This document shows positions 8,542 through 55,558 of a DNA stretch of 64,000 bases, piece after piece. The position numbers were made by a program, and so were the translations under genes. The number at the start of each line of letters is the position of its first letter. The stretch's first letter is position 1. The DNA is taken from NCBI RefSeq assembly GCF_023015885.1, contig NZ_JALKBE010000004.1, positions 62,001 through 126,000 of the forward strand, in the 5' to 3' direction. The DNA is from Aliiroseovarius sp. S1123 (GTDB lineage Bacteria > Pseudomonadota > Alphaproteobacteria > Rhodobacterales > Rhodobacteraceae). Below the pieces are notes generated by a model. The model was given only the letters and a program-made list of their open reading frames with translations, was not told the DNA's origin and searched no databases.

Positions 8542-9740
8542 CTTAGAATTGCAAGAAGTTGAACAGTGGGCACACCGGTCACGGACATGCCACGCGATGC
8601 CTCAAAGGCACGAATGGCAGCGCGGCCTTTCTCTCCGATCACACCATCAGGACGCCCCGCCTGAAATCCCAGATCGTTCAGGGCTTTCTGAAGCGCCTGC
8701 CGTTCTGTGGTGGTCATCCCCCAGGGGTTCTTGGGATAGCTGGCCTGGATCGCACGACCTCCGGCAAGGCGGTCAGACAGATGACCCACGCCGATCACAT
8801 AGCTATCGGCGTAGTTATACGTCTTCAGCACGTGGAAATTCTGGAAGATCATAAAAATTGGCCCCGTCGGACCCGCGGGCAGAATCAGTGCACCACTTTC
8901 GGCACCGGTCAGCGCACGCCCCTTAACATCGGTGACCCCCATCTTCCCCCAATCGCGCAAACGACGCGAATAGATCCGCCCGGTCAAGGCCAGATCAAAC
9001 CCTTTGGGAAGTCGAACCTCGATCGCCCAAGGTTGTCCTTTGGCCCATCCCTTGGCGCGCAGATAGGCCGCGGTCGACGCCAGCGCATCCGTCGGATCAT
9101 CCGACCAGATATCGCGCACGCCGTCGCGGTTGAAATCCTCGGCATGGGCCAGATACGAACTGGGCATGAATTGGGTATGCCCCATCGCGCCCGCATATGA
9201 GCCTTTCATGCGTGAGGAAGACACATCGCCCGCGGTAAGGATTTGCAAGGCGGCCAACAGCTCGGCCTCGAACAGATCGCGGCGGCGGCCCTCATAGGCC
9301 AGCGTGGCCAGCGTCGACAGAACCGAGGCCGATCCGCGCACCGCGCCAAAGCTGCTTTCCATACCCCAGATCGCGACGACGACTTCTTTCGGGACACCAT
9401 ATTGCCGCTCGATCTTCTTTAAAAGCGTCGGATACCGGGACAGCGCTCGTTGCCCGCCCTTGATCCGCTGGGGCGAAGCGGCTGACCCGATATAGTCCTG
9501 CAAACTGCGCGTGGTTTCCGCCGGGCGGCGGTCTGACTTGATGACGGACGGCAAATACTCCGCCCGCCCAAGCGCCTTCAGCGCCGCGTCGCTGACCCCC
9601 ACCGACCGCGCTTTGACCGCAAACCCCGACAACCAGCCGGAAAACCCAGCATCGGCCAGCACGCGCCCCGGCATCACCACCGCAGCGGCCAGCGTGACCA
9701 TCGCCATGCGGCGGTTGAAGGAAATGGCATGTTGGGGCAT
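8538..9740 (-). CDS. Lytic murein transglycosylase B-like, with peptidoglycan-binding domain
   Basis: About 400 residues. A signal peptide (RRMAMVTLAAAVVMPGRVLA) is followed by an SLT/MltB domain with the catalytic Glu in AIWGMESSFG and the MltB signature GSYAGAMGHTQFMPSSY. The C-terminal 60 residues form a PG_binding_1 domain (ALQKALNDLGFQAGRPDGVIG). It should cleave peptidoglycan glycan strands in the periplasm. ATG 9740 was chosen because AGGA lies eight bases upstream; ATG 9758 and an earlier start are possible. The stop overlaps that of tag, tail to tail. Confidence 0.88.
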   Translation of the reverse strand: MPQHAISFNRRMAMVTLAAAVVMPGRVLADAGFSGWLSGFAVKARSVGVSDAALKALGRAEYLPSVIKSDRRPAETTRSLQDYIGSAASPQRIKGGQRALSRYPTLLKKIERQYGVPKEVVVAIWGMESSFGAVRGSASVLSTLATLAYEGRRRDLFEAELLAALQILTAGDVSSSRMKGSYAGAMGHTQFMPSSYLAHAEDFNRDGVRDIWSDDPTDALASTAAYLRAKGWAKGQPWAIEVRLPKGFDLALTGRIYSRRLRDWGKMGVTDVKGRALTGAESGALILPAGPTGPIFMIFQNFHVLKTYNYADSYVIGVGHLSDRLAGGRAIQASYPKNPWGMTTTERQALQKALNDLGFQAGRPDGVIGEKGRAAIRAFEASRGMSVTGVPTVQLLAILS

Positions 9741-9855
9741 CTGGAGTCCTGTTTGCATCGTGATGTCCAGCCACTCTAGGGACTGCAGGTGGCGACACAA
9801 AGGCAATCCGGCCACATCGGCAAAACCGTGCCATGAACAACTGGAGCTACAGCAA

Positions 9856-9884
9856 TTGCACCCACCCGCCTTGCCGCGTATAGC
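9856..9884 (+). promoter_or_regulatory. Candidate sigma-70 promoter of argH
   Basis: TTGCAC and TATAGC are separated by exactly 17 bp, placing transcription start near 9891, about 30 bases before the argH ATG. Matched by eye only. Confidence 0.45.
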
Positions 9885-9919
9885 ATTGCCCAGCAGAAAT
9901 ATGTCCTGAAAGGCAGATC

Positions 9920-11332
9920 ATGAGCGACGACACGAAATCCGCGAATGAAATGTGGGGCGGCCGGTTCTCGGCGGGTCCCGACGCGATCATGGAGGCGATC
10001 AACGCCTCGATCGGCTATGACCAGCGCATGGCGCGACAGGACATCGAAGGCTCGCGCGCGCATGCTGCAATGCTGGCCGCGACCGGTGTAATCACCGAGG
10101 ACGACTCCAAGGTCATCCGCGATGGTCTGCTGACCGTGCTGGCCGAAATCGAGGGCGGCAATTTCGCCTTCTCGACCGCGCTGGAAGACATTCACATGAA
10201 TGTCGAAGCGCGTTTGAAAGAAATCGTCGGTGAACCGGCTGGCCGTCTGCACACCGCCCGGTCGCGCAACGACCAGGTCGCCACCGATTTCCGCCTGTGG
10301 GTCCGTGACCAGATGGACGCCGCCATTGATGGACTCGAGGCCCTGATCCGCGCGCTGCTGGGTCAGGCCGAAGCGGGTGCTGATTGGGTTATGCCCGGCT
10401 TCACCCACCTGCAAACCGCGCAGCCCGTCACATGGGGCCACCACATGATGGCCTATGTCGAGATGTTCGGCCGCGACATGTCGCGCTTCCGCGACGCCCG
10501 TGCCCGAATGAACGAAAGCCCGCTGGGGTCCGCCGCGCTTGCTGGCACGTCTTTCCCCATTGATCGCCACATGACGGCCGAGGCCCTTGGCTTTGACCGC
10601 CCGACCGCGAACTCGCTGGACGCTGTGGCCGACCGCGACTTCGCGCTGGAGTTCCTGTCGTCCGCAACCATCTGCGCCATGCATCTCAGCCGCTTCGCTG
10701 AAGAGCTGGTGATCTGGTCATCTGCTCAGTTCCGTTTTGTGCGCATGTCGGACAAATGGTCGACCGGCTCGTCGATCATGCCGCAGAAACGCAACCCGGA
10801 TGCCGCCGAGCTGATCCGCGCCAAAATCGGTCGGATCATGGGCGCCAATATCGGTCTGATGACTGTGATGAAGGGCCTGCCGCTGGCCTATTCCAAGGAC
10901 ATGCAGGAAGACAAAGAGCAGGTTTTTGACGCTGCCGACAACCTGATGCTGGCGCTGGCTGCGATGACCGGGATGGTGTCAGACATGACCGCCAACACCG
11001 AGAGCCTTGAAGCCGCGGCGTCCTCCGGGTTCTCGACCGCGACCGATTTGGCCGATTGGTGCGTGCGCGCGCTGAACATGCCGTTCCGCGACGCCCACCA
11101 CGTGACCGGATCGCTGGTGGCCATGGCCGAAGATCGCGGCTGCGACCTGCCCGACCTGTCGCTGGAAGACATGCAAACGGTCAACGCGCAAATCACCGAG
11201 GAAGTCTTCGGCGTCTTGGGCGTCCACAACTCGGTCGCCTCGCGCACCAGCTATGGCGGCACCGCACCCAGCGAAGTGCGCAAGCAGATTGCGCGTTGGA
11301 AAGAAAAACTGGGGAAAGAGGCGCTGGCATGA
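9920..11332 (+). CDS. argH: Argininosuccinate lyase
   Basis: A 470-residue fumarase/aspartase superfamily enzyme. It shows [11 protein letters not shown] at the start, the conserved [13 protein letters not shown], the [14 protein letters not shown] region, and the superfamily signature [12 protein letters not shown] at about 289-300. It splits argininosuccinate into arginine and fumarate in the cytosol, the last step of arginine synthesis. Its stop overlaps the ATG of a mini-lipoprotein gene (ATGA), and lysA follows, an arrangement common in Rhodobacteraceae. Confidence 0.96.
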
Positions 11333-20199: not shown

Positions 20200-20201
20200 T
20201 A

Positions 20202-20300
20202 GGTGAGAGGCTGAACACGACCCAGACGGGGCTCGTTGTGGCTGCTTCCTTCCGGACCTGACCAGATTGGCGAGGCGCCTACCCGCGCCAACCTCTCGCC
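20202..20300 (-). ncRNA. ffs: Signal recognition particle RNA (4.5S type)
   Basis: About 99 nt. The apical core GGTCAGGTCCGGAAGGAAGC plus AGCC, the universally conserved Ffh-binding loop, is exact on the minus strand. The 5' end GGCGAGAGG pairs with the 3' end CCTCTCACC, giving one long hairpin without an Alu domain. With Ffh it targets membrane proteins to FtsY and SecYEG. Ends are set from the terminal helix and could be off by a few bases. It lies between the cpdB-like gene and the small ORFs before rsgA. Confidence 0.93.
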
Positions 20301-53589: not shown

Positions 53590-54036
53590 ATGAAAACTGC
53601 ACGCATTTTCGCTTTTGCATCTCTTGCAAGCCTCACGATTGCAGGAGGCCTTGCGGCTCAATCAGAGCCCACCAATCCCACCGTGATTAAACGGTCGGAG
53701 ACCATGAAGGCCATAGGTGGATCCATGAAGACTCTGGCGGGTATGGCCAAAGGCGAAATGGCATTTGATGCCGACAAGGCTAATGCTGCCGTCGCCACCA
53801 TCGTCGAAAAGGGCATGACGGTCCCTGCTGTTTTCGAAGCCAACGAAACCGACCCCGCGACCGAAGCCCTGCCCGCGATCTGGGAAAACTGGGATGACTT
53901 TGCCAAGAAAGCCGACGACTTGGTCATGGCAGCCAAAGGCGTTGCCGAGATCACCGAGCAAGGCGCGATTGGCGCCGCTTTGGGTCAGATCGGCGGCACC
54001 TGCAAAGCCTGCCACGACGATTATCGCAAGAAGTAA
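53590..54036 (+). CDS. Cytochrome c' / c556-type periplasmic protein
   Basis: A 148-residue protein with a cleavable signal peptide (FAFASLASLTIAGGLAAQ). The mature part is a four-helix bundle of class II cytochrome c type, with heme motif CKACH near the C-terminus in GGTCKACHDDYRKK. It binds NO or CO or shuttles electrons in the periplasm. ATG 53590 follows GAAAGGA. It ends 14 bases before an inverted repeat that brackets the low-GC transporter gene. Confidence 0.9.
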   Translation: MKTARIFAFASLASLTIAGGLAAQSEPTNPTVIKRSETMKAIGGSMKTLAGMAKGEMAFDADKANAAVATIVEKGMTVPAVFEANETDPATEALPAIWENWDDFAKKADDLVMAAKGVAEITEQGAIGAALGQIGGTCKACHDDYRKK

Positions 54037-54050
54037 CGCTTGAACCGACC

Positions 54051-54092
54051 AAGGGCGCACCCGGCAGGGCAAGCCTCATGCCAGAAGTGTTG
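54051..54092 (+). repeat. Left 42-bp imperfect inverted repeat flanking the EamA gene
   Basis: AAGGGCGC-ACCCGGC-AGGG-CAAGCCTC-ATG-CCAGAAGTGTTG. The reverse complement of 55245-55285 matches it at 36 of 42 columns: three substitutions in the first half, one gap, two substitutions in ATG/TTA. Both copies start 10-15 bases after the stop of the gene outside them. Confidence 0.8.
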
Positions 54093-54128
54093 CTGATCAT
54101 GTGTGAACGGTAGTGCGATCAGCAACAC
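54087..54128 (+). repeat. 12-bp perfect hairpin at the inner edge of the left repeat
   Basis: GTGTTGCTGATC and GATCAGCAACAC around an 18-base loop. Its first six bases belong to the 42-bp repeat. A smaller hairpin (GTGTT / AACAC, 55233-55250) occupies the matching place at the right end. Confidence 0.7.
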
Positions 54129-54176
54129 CCTAATGACTGGTTTGGGCCCATCGTGGCAGTCAAACCGAGACAAGCC

Positions 54177-55100
54177 TTAAGGAGTTCGAGCGATATTTGT
54201 CGTTACGTTTCGTGTGACGCGGCTTCGTGTAACTATAATTGCTATGACGACCAGCGCACAGGCAATGAGTTGAGAGAAGGTTAGGGTTTCTCCGAATGCA
54301 AACATGCCAACGAAGAACATCGTCGGAAGTTCGACACTCCCGAAAACTGCAGTGCGCGACGCGCCGATGATTGGCGAGCTTATGGTGTAAATCAACTGTG
54401 GGACGAGAGCGGACAAGACCGCAATTCCCAAAATCAACATCCATGTGTCAAAATCTTTGGGCAGAATTTCGGCCGATGTTGAGCTTGCCACAAGGGGTGC
54501 CAGCGCCAATACGGATCCCAATGAAACTGAAGCGATCCTTGCAAGCGGGGGTATTCGCGAAAGGCGATGAACAAGCACGCATATGCCAAACCCGAACCCT
54601 AAAGGGGCCGCTAGGGAAGTAGCAAGCGTAGCCCACTGGTTAGACGGCACCGCAGAAGGATTACCCGCAATAACGGCAGCCAAAATGATCAAACTAGAAG
54701 CAATCAAAGCTCTGCGTGATGGCGTATCAGCAAATAGTGTCCACGCGATAACAACGGTGAAAACGGGGTAGGTCATGTAGAGCACACCAACGGTTGACGC
54801 TGGAATCGTCTCGACTGCTGTCACATATCCGATCCAGCCCAATCCCATTGCAGCGCCCGCACATAAGCCCCAGACGAGTTCACGCCACGCTTTCAGCTGG
54901 CTTAGAAACGCAGGGAATAGGATCACTGCGGCAATGACATATCGGTAAAAAGCGACTGCATGTGGGACAAGTCCTTGGTCGGTCAAATTTCTGCTGAAAT
55001 ACGGAACGATACCAAAACAGACCGACGCAAATAGCACGCCAAGTGCTGCCATTGCTTGTCTGGAGTTCAGTGTTCTCACATCTGAAAGTGAATCTGTCAT
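54177..55100 (-). CDS. DMT superfamily (EamA) transporter, low-GC
   Basis: A 307-residue membrane protein with ten predicted helices in two EamA repeats; AALGVLFASVCFGIVPYFSR opens it and the second repeat ends FFVGMFAFGETLTFSQLIAC. Its base composition is close to 50 % GC by eye, well below its neighbours, and many codons end in A or T, which points to acquisition from elsewhere. It is enclosed by the 42-bp inverted repeats at 54051 and 55245. Substrate unknown. Confidence 0.82.
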   Translation of the reverse strand: MTDSLSDVRTLNSRQAMAALGVLFASVCFGIVPYFSRNLTDQGLVPHAVAFYRYVIAAVILFPAFLSQLKAWRELVWGLCAGAAMGLGWIGYVTAVETIPASTVGVLYMTYPVFTVVIAWTLFADTPSRRALIASSLIILAAVIAGNPSAVPSNQWATLATSLAAPLGFGFGICVLVHRLSRIPPLARIASVSLGSVLALAPLVASSTSAEILPKDFDTWMLILGIAVLSALVPQLIYTISSPIIGASRTAVFGSVELPTMFFVGMFAFGETLTFSQLIACALVVIAIIVTRSRVTRNVTTNIARTP

Positions 55101-55120
55101 ATCAGAGAGGTATCACAGAC

Positions 55121-55240
55121 CTAGCATCTGCCAAGGACCGTTTTGTCCGCGATGCCACCGTTCCGAATTACAGCGTCCTTGTAGAAATCAGCGAGGGTGT
55201 CGTTGTTGAAAGAGCCTGTCGCGCCATGCGATGTGTTAGA
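55121..55240. other. Remnant-like stretch between the EamA gene and the right repeat
   Basis: The 140 bp between the EamA start and the right repeat are not explained by a gene. The minus strand has an open frame ending at TAG 55123-55121 with protein-like sequence GSFNNDTLADFYKDAVI, but no start inside the segment; the plus strand is also open. It may be a truncated gene that came with the cassette. I could not name it. Confidence 0.3.
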
Positions 55241-55244
55241 CGCA

Positions 55245-55285
55245 CAACACTTCTGGTAAGAGGCTTGCCGGCAGGGCGCGCCCTT
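55245..55285 (-). repeat. Right imperfect inverted repeat flanking the EamA gene
   Basis: 41 bp, partner of 54051-54092 in opposite orientation. On the minus strand it starts AAGGGCGCGCCCTGCCGG and ends CCAGAAGTGTTG. It lies 10 bases after the stop of the I78 inhibitor gene. No target-site duplication is apparent outside the pair. Confidence 0.8.
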
Positions 55286-55294
55286 TTTTCAGGA

Positions 55295-55558
55295 TCAACT
55301 GCACCAGATGCGGTCGATTAATCCATTCTCATCAATGCTGATGTTCAGCCGGTCTGGCCGATAGTCCTGCGTATAGGCCATGCCCGGCTGCAGCACGCGC
55401 CGGTTTTCGGGAAGATCAAGATCCGTCAACACCTCGGCGTTTTGCCCGATAAGATACATCAGGTCACCGGCCCCACAATCGCCAAGTGGCTCTTGACCGC
55501 TATGGGCGACACAGCCGCTTAGCGTGGCGAAAATCGCACCCAGAAAATACTGTTTCAT
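55295..55558 (-). CDS. I78 family peptidase inhibitor lipoprotein
   Basis: An 87-residue protein with a lipoprotein signal peptide, lipobox LSGC at 13-16. The mature domain has LGDCGAGDLMYLIGQ, then VLQPGMAYTQDYRPDRLNIS and IDRIWC; the two Cys can pair and the DYRPDRLN motif is the I78 (elastase-type) inhibitor signature. It would guard the cell envelope from serine proteases. It is convergent with the cytochrome c'/EamA region and divergent from frmA. Confidence 0.85.
   Translation of the reverse strand: MKQYFLGAIFATLSGCVAHSGQEPLGDCGAGDLMYLIGQNAEVLTDLDLPENRRVLQPGMAYTQDYRPDRLNISIDENGLIDRIWCS

Follow-up and report, generated by a model that had tools for sequence, protein, structure and literature searches.

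Integron gene cassettes carry a single attC site each and come without a target duplication, while TIMEs and MITEs are mostly without coding capacity. In the parts of the literature drawn upon here, TIMEs and MITEs are described as small non-autonomous elements with inverted ends (PMC4133298, PMC10969869). Mobile insertion cassettes (MICs), such as MIC231 of Bacillus cereus and mic-qnrD of the Proteeae, bear a passenger gene in the place of the transposase and, according to the excerpts of their account used, are moved in trans or believed to be so (PMC3913671). Concerning the choice of target, IS1272 of Staphylococcus (IS1182 family) recognises an inverted repeat or potential stem-loop and not a sequence; in the consulted sections of its description it takes the place of the target hairpin without a duplication, and it has a transposase gene of its own (PMC5678879). 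Additionally, ISRm22, ISPsy8 and ISPpu9/10 split REP palindromes, ISRm22 and ISPsy8 at the symmetry axis, and REPs often lie between convergent genes; within the portion of that report referred to, these insertion sequences have their own transposases, one target repeat family and duplications of 6, 3 or 2 bp (PMC1525189).

The element described in this work occupies positions 54070..55267 (1198 bp) of the window, which is the whole 64,000-nucleotide stretch of Aliiroseovarius sp. S1123 that was analysed (NZ_JALKBE010000004.1, 62,001 to 126,000), and in the way it appears to work it would be nearest, by analogy, to the MICs. Like these, as far as the excerpts of their account go, it has inverted repeats (21/23 bp), a target duplication and only an EamA transporter gene inside, with no transposase (PMC3913671). 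However, the ends of its family are long, asymmetric and hairpin-bearing and the target is mostly a terminator-like hairpin, with a duplication of 9 bp, against the 2 bp given for mic-qnrD in the same excerpts, and with a cargo that differs in each of 19 candidate pairs. Unlike IS1182/IS1272, the window element keeps the hairpin as two halves, with a 9-bp duplication, and unlike the targets of the REP-splitting insertion sequences the 16 targets of its family differ in sequence, again with a 9-bp duplication. TIMEs and MITEs differ from this family in that it encloses reading frames of 0.4-1.5 kb, and integron cassettes differ from the window element in that it has two inverted ends and a 9-bp duplication. 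Set apart by the parts of their descriptions at hand, neither the MICs nor IS1272 nor the REP-splitting insertion sequences bring gene cargo together with long asymmetric ends and terminator targets, and no account of these ends was recognised among the titles and abstract beginnings of the open-licence literature.

Two relatives of the same genus preserve the site as it was before the insertion. The 430 bases after the stop codon of the cytochrome c' gene, in gene direction, were compared among 18 same-genus relatives and the window, and the segment was absent from all 18. In the relatives G004 and G003, one hairpin with a T tract comes after the cytochrome c' stop, and next to it lies the I78 gene in convergent orientation; the corresponding window genes are cytochrome c' at 53590..54036 (plus strand; PF01322) and the I78 peptidase inhibitor at 55295..55558 (minus strand; PF11720). 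When aligned on the G004 and G003 sites, the window flanks overlap by exactly nine columns, CCGGCAGGG, which places the two copies of the target site duplication at 54061..54069 and 55268..55276 (both plus strand), and the terminator is rebuilt once the segment and one 9-base copy are removed. Its left half, including the left duplication, lies at 54051..54069 (plus) and its right half with the T tract at 55277..55290 (plus). Folding of the G004 empty site gave a z of -5.5, and the terminator scan of the window did not list the split hairpin among its predictions. The empty site and the nine-column overlap therefore show that the segment entered a terminator hairpin and duplicated 9 bp of target: the element is inserted at the apex of the hairpin between two convergent genes, it lies between both 9-bp copies, and its ends match the family models R2 and R3 (see below). 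Because the target is the common terminator of two convergent genes, the spacing of the ends, each starting 10-15 bases after the stop of the gene outside it, is also accounted for, a feature which the sequence-only reading had held not to be predicted by a plain insertion. That reading had offered, besides a non-autonomous mobile cassette, a dispersed 3'-end repeat that trapped a gene; the cassette, and not the dispersed repeat, is what the two empty sites, the 9-bp duplication and the recurrence of the same ends around other genes sustain, and the part of the repeat that seemed tied to the neighbouring stops is the split terminator itself. G015, the closest relative by the cytochrome gene (93% aa), is also without the segment, and its DNA after cytochrome c' reaches the next gene without I78, leaving no clean empty site. 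By eye, I78 is missing between cytochrome c' and the next gene in G015, G010, G018 and G002 (L023, L024, L025 and L026, respectively), so that this intergenic spot shows a second kind of variation.

The repeat had been drawn from the letters as 42 bp long, with 36 of 42 columns identical, one gap included, between 54051-54092 and the reverse complement of 55245-55285, and on realignment this count was exact. The inverted ends stand, but only 54070..54092 (plus, CAAGCCTCATGCCAGAAGTGTTG) and 55245..55267 (minus, CAAGCCTCTTACCAGAAGTGTTG) make up the 23-bp terminal inverted repeat, identical at 21/23 positions and also delimited by the family alignments, the outer columns being target duplication and terminator. 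A repeat search of the window returned 54068-54092 and 55245-55269 as an inverted pair, 92% complementary, and the 22-base core of the repeat was met in only two places of the window at up to 3 mismatches (0.01 expected in shuffles). Within its own genome of 3.23 Mb, a 91-base left-end query matched itself and the right end only, and a 25-base end pattern (up to 3 mismatches) matched the two window places only. The terminal repeats are set within two different conserved modules, the left end (LE; about 80 bp, 54070..54149, plus) and the right end (RE; about 123 bp, 55146..55267, minus), which in the window score 67.2 bits with model R2 (E-value = 6e-20) and 76.1 bits with model R3 (E-value = 1e-22); the window copy is itself a seed of both models, so the scores attest to membership and not to discovery. 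As a pattern, the ends can be written CAAGCC[CT]CTTACCAGA[AT]GTGTTG. The stretch at about 55146-55245, which had been put down as an unexplained remnant, corresponds to the right end conserved across the element family.

Hairpins had also been seen at both inner edges of the repeat. The left one is strong, GTGTTGCTGATC ... GATCAGCAACAC at 54087..54128 (plus), a 12-bp stem with 12/12 pairs and a z of -4.3, whereas on the right GTGTT..AACAC pairs over only 5 bp, and the right-end hairpin of the family lies deeper, at 55174..55200 (minus; GCCCTCGCAGA..TCTGCGAGGGC in the alignment), where it has decayed in the window copy, which has no fold (z 0.59). Among 10 left ends, 82.8% of the hairpin cells are paired and four pairs are changed on both sides; the covariation score was reached by 0/500 shuffles, with slid controls far below. 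Covariation of the RE hairpin is weak (26/500 shuffles reach the score). The folds vary from copy to copy, the RE hairpin having a z of -6.4 in L088 and -0.6 in L163 and the LE hairpin one of -1.2 in L095. Rfam gave no match at the element site, and the sigma-70 promoter scan none in the region.

The sole gene within the element is an intact frame of 307 aa encoding an EamA/DMT-family transporter (54177..55100, minus); no transposase is inside, and the identities proposed for the transporter and both neighbours hold in Pfam. The lower GC and A/T-rich codons that had caught the eye are also borne out by measurement: the GC content of the segment is 51.3% against 60.4% for the window and lies below that of all 629 same-length windows sampled every 100 bases, and the transporter, with a GC3 of 0.49, stays under the 0.63 and 0.78 of two neighbouring genes. 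Of 100 other genomes, only G001, another species of the genus, has a near relative of this transporter (92% aa; the next best has 51%). This copy (L053, G001:C31, 10-2725) is established at an unrelated site, between a phage-type integrase and tRNA-Ala, and has 88% nucleotide identity with the window over 977 bp; the DNA in common ends short of both element ends, and no family ends were detected in 3.9 kb around it at up to 5 mismatches. The cargo was therefore probably acquired, from another lineage, and the presence of this EamA gene in both settings suggests that it spreads by several routes. With the whole segment as query, plasmids gave only distant transporter matches (2 records, 64-67%) and phages gave none.

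The sequence-only reading had proposed a search for the repeat in the genome and its relatives, and such ends do flank different genes in further genomes. A 25-position end pattern with up to 3 mismatches had 10 matches in 8 of the 394 genomes of the same bacterial family (two of them the window's own), against one match for the reversed control, and a 23-position pattern, likewise with up to 3 mismatches, had 19 matches, those of the window among them, in 15 of these genomes, against none for the reversed control. Several matches of the latter (G355, G348, G212 and one in G134) are without an LE or RE module and may be due to chance. An exact degenerate scan of the species-genome collection led to four stretches, from Jhaorihella thermophila, Roseovarius, Pseudophaeobacter leonis and Falsiruegeria mediterranea. 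Profile searches covered the 394 family genomes with R1 and the 25 genomes with matches with R2 and R3; the genome searches used one genome per species, and the profile searches scored at most 8, 150 and 142 candidates per genome. Among the matches listed, LE and RE pair in inverted orientation, facing each other, in at least 19 candidate pairs (18 and that of the window) of 0.6 to 5.9 kb. Most of the stronger ends of these pairs are seeds of the profile models, and the weaker end is below 20 bits in 6/19 pairs (G397, G311, G216, G134a, G339b and G103), G103 being the least certain of all. Many RE-profile matches consist of the inner hairpin without the terminal repeat and were left out of the pair count, and orphan ends (G008, G249, G230, G448, G454, L255 and G321_C22) were not counted as elements. 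In a sample of the class (289 genomes, up to 2 mismatches), a pair was found besides the window only in G471, which belongs to another family; the last search in the family of G471 covered one genome, G471 itself. The segment being present in 0/18 relatives and the end pair being found elsewhere too, neither of the outcomes that had been named as speaking against a mobile cassette is what we observe. A 14-mer of the LE consensus, looked for with the idea that the inner LE and RE are common roseobacter intergenic sequence, is absent from the window. Element copies are few per genome and mutually dissimilar, unlike those of most active insertion sequences.

Two orphan left ends deserve mention. 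That of Pseudophaeobacter leonis (L094, 1391-6717) has large serine recombinase genes in its vicinity, and by eye one of these genes looks split into two frames. The other (L245, G321:C22, 781-1760) has a broken terminator outside it and a near-identical intact terminator about 940 bp further, and may be a remnant whose right end was lost.

The 27 cargo frames of the 19 pairs, with the window included and IS110 left out, have no two alike at an E-value of 0.01. Pfam assigned EamA and LysE transporters, a TPR protein and two alpha/beta hydrolases; a GST together with a pyridine nucleotide oxidoreductase and an Rrf2 regulator; a LysR regulator together with a sulfotransferase; and proteins of the metallo-beta-lactamase fold, nitroreductase, 2'-5' RNA ligase type, GNAT, GFA and amidohydrolase families. 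The pair G029b carries HxlR, methyltransferase, outer membrane beta-barrel and OsmC frames. Frames of G471, G327, G332, G397, G339b and G339a, as well as one of G029b, had no Pfam match, and some of these may not be genes. No transposase was detected among the scanned cargo frames of the 19 pairs, except for an IS110 inside G029b, which we have taken as a later insertion.

Concerning the target sites, the flanks of the 16 elements with both boundaries placed were rejoined and the best hairpin at the insertion point was scored; the outer boundary could not be placed in G332, G216 and G103, which were left out of this set. A hairpin score of at least 20 was reached in 12/16 rejoined sites, with four below the threshold, compared to 80/2000 ORF-free positions (4.0%) and 7.3% of 1500 random positions. 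Against the ORF-free control the binomial probability is 2.6e-14, with positions treated as independent. Elements were masked in 16/26 loci for the ORF-free control and unmasked for the random one, which would if anything raise the control values. A hairpin plus an A or T run of at least 3 was present in 11/16 sites and in 2.3% of ORF-free positions. The enrichment does not stem from the search, because the elements were found by their ends and not by their sites. By eye, the 16 rejoined sites differ in sequence and mostly share the hairpin form. The 9-bp duplication, as first placed, matches at 9/9 positions in the window, G453 and G029a and at 8/9 in G170, G160, G455 and G471. To obtain a better duplication, the right boundary was shifted in five elements, namely by 1 bp in G029b, G339b and G311, by 11 bp in G321a, and in G134a by 1 bp for hairpin scoring and 2 bp for the neighbour-frame analysis; with these moves the matches out of 9 rose from 2 to 9 in G029b, from 1 to 7 in G339b, from 2 to 7 in G311, from 4 to 5 in G134a and from 3 to 8 in G321a. 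Elsewhere, 7/9 positions match in G339a and G327, 5/9 in G243 and 4/9 in G397.

We consider it very likely that these elements are non-autonomous, gene-carrying transposable cassettes, aimed at terminator hairpins and joined with a 9-bp stagger, which would be moved in trans by a transposase encoded elsewhere. We infer the movement from the anatomy, since the searches brought up neither a transposase for the ends nor a further copy of the window element elsewhere. A DDE-type transposase supplied in trans would bind LE and RE, cut out or copy the DNA between them and join the cassette with a 9-bp stagger to hairpin-forming DNA, usually a terminator; with such targeting, insertion would rarely harm a gene. 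Genes could come between the ends by capture during transposition or by recombination between ends, and the family would act as a shuttle of single genes or small gene groups.

Such a helper was searched for in several ways. Among the matches listed, no autonomous copy with these ends was detected (394 family and 289 class genomes with the patterns; 25 genomes with the R2 and R3 profiles), and the searches of genomes, plasmids and viral contigs brought up no related autonomous element. Two RE queries had no match in plasmids at an E-value of 0.1, and four short end queries gave mostly chance matches there; matches in Variovorax and Sulfitobacter dubius plasmids showed at most one end. In viral contigs, 12 stretches match a 16-mer with the terminal repeat only, without an LE or RE module, and two longer patterns had no match. 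A match in the plasmid of Sulfitobacter sp. SK025 (L255, NZ_CP025809.1) suggested an autonomous copy, with IS66 genes next to the repeat; these genes belong to an IS66 (L255 6001-8931), with its own ends and an 8-bp duplication by eye, that is inserted into the RE of a copy. Beyond this interrupted RE, a ParD/ParE pair is annotated at 9372-9969 of the plasmid. An IS1595-type transposase beside the terminal repeat of G134 (L098) lies outside the repeat, and that pair, by eye without a duplication, was not counted. The Tn5 type (IS50/Tn5, IS4 family), the only transposase family searched by its model, was considered because of 9-bp duplications and palindromic targets mentioned in the portion of PMC1525189 referred to; PF14706 was present in 1/21 genomes, in an element whose 20-bp ends, GCTTGCAGTTACCCACAAGT, are unrelated.

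These results bear directly on the strongest competing view, that the window carries a decayed ordinary transposon whose own transposase was replaced by the transporter, and which is a member of a described insertion-sequence family that we failed to recognise. We give this view a little less than an even chance. The 9-bp duplication and the inverted ends are traces such as a DDE transposase leaves, and MIC231A1, in the excerpts of its description used, contains a peptidase gene where a transposase gene would be and relies on the transposase of IS231A for its movement (PMC3913671); against it stand the scanned cargo of 19 pairs, with no transposase other than the IS110 of G029b, and the Tn5-type transposase confined to 1/21 genomes and having unrelated ends. 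That a site-specific recombinase, tyrosine or serine, moves the cassettes by way of hairpins, as with integron cassettes, is in our opinion very improbable. The hairpins in both ends and the target and the different gene in each cassette do resemble integron cassettes, and there are serine recombinase genes close to the L094 orphan LE and a phage-type integrase next to the transporter of G001, but inverted ends with a 9-bp duplication of varying sequence fit staggered DDE joining better than conservative recombination, and no recombinase family appeared in the scanned cargo frames of the pairs.

Selection has to be weighed as well, since a terminator between convergent genes is a harmless place and elements inserted at random could have survived mainly there. 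The neighbours are convergent, with the left gene on the plus and the right gene on the minus strand, at 8/16 sites in a coarse reading of the frames (G000, G170, G160, G029b, G339b, G243, G471 and G397), the choice of neighbouring frame being ambiguous at the other 8/16. However, hairpins of this kind are met at only 4.0% of ORF-free positions compared to 12/16 insertion points, and selection alone does not explain why the insertion points fall within the hairpins rather than elsewhere in the gaps; we regard random insertion as unlikely. As for two independent terminators that resemble each other by chance with a low-GC gene merely between them, each repeat is indeed placed just past a stop codon and has terminator-like sequence, but G004 and G003 have one terminator there, rebuilt from both window halves, and further genomes have the inner 23 bp next to different genes. 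The empty site refutes this reading, to which we leave practically no probability.

A wider form of the cassette interpretation is put forward more tentatively, as one we find possible and would not call probable. The elements may constitute a previously unnamed cassette family, spread in the family of the Rhodobacterales to which the window belongs and in at least one other alphaproteobacterial family, for which terminator hairpins would serve as safe harbours defined by structure. Its helper, perhaps on another replicon or a transfer particle, would recognise hairpins in both the ends and the target, and the system would be a transposon counterpart of integron cassettes, exchanging single metabolic and transport genes between distant genera without gene disruption. 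Differences of a single gene between related bacteria, otherwise put down to unspecified horizontal transfer, are thereby given a definite mechanism and, in LE, RE, the 9-bp duplication and the split terminator, a signature that can be searched for. The elements also raise the question of which transposase picks hairpins by their shape and moves a cargo that does not include itself; such a helper, if found, might serve as a tool for placing DNA in terminators while leaving genes intact. Apart from the element, Rfam matched the window just once at its gathering threshold, with a bacterial small SRP RNA at 20201-20298 on the minus strand.
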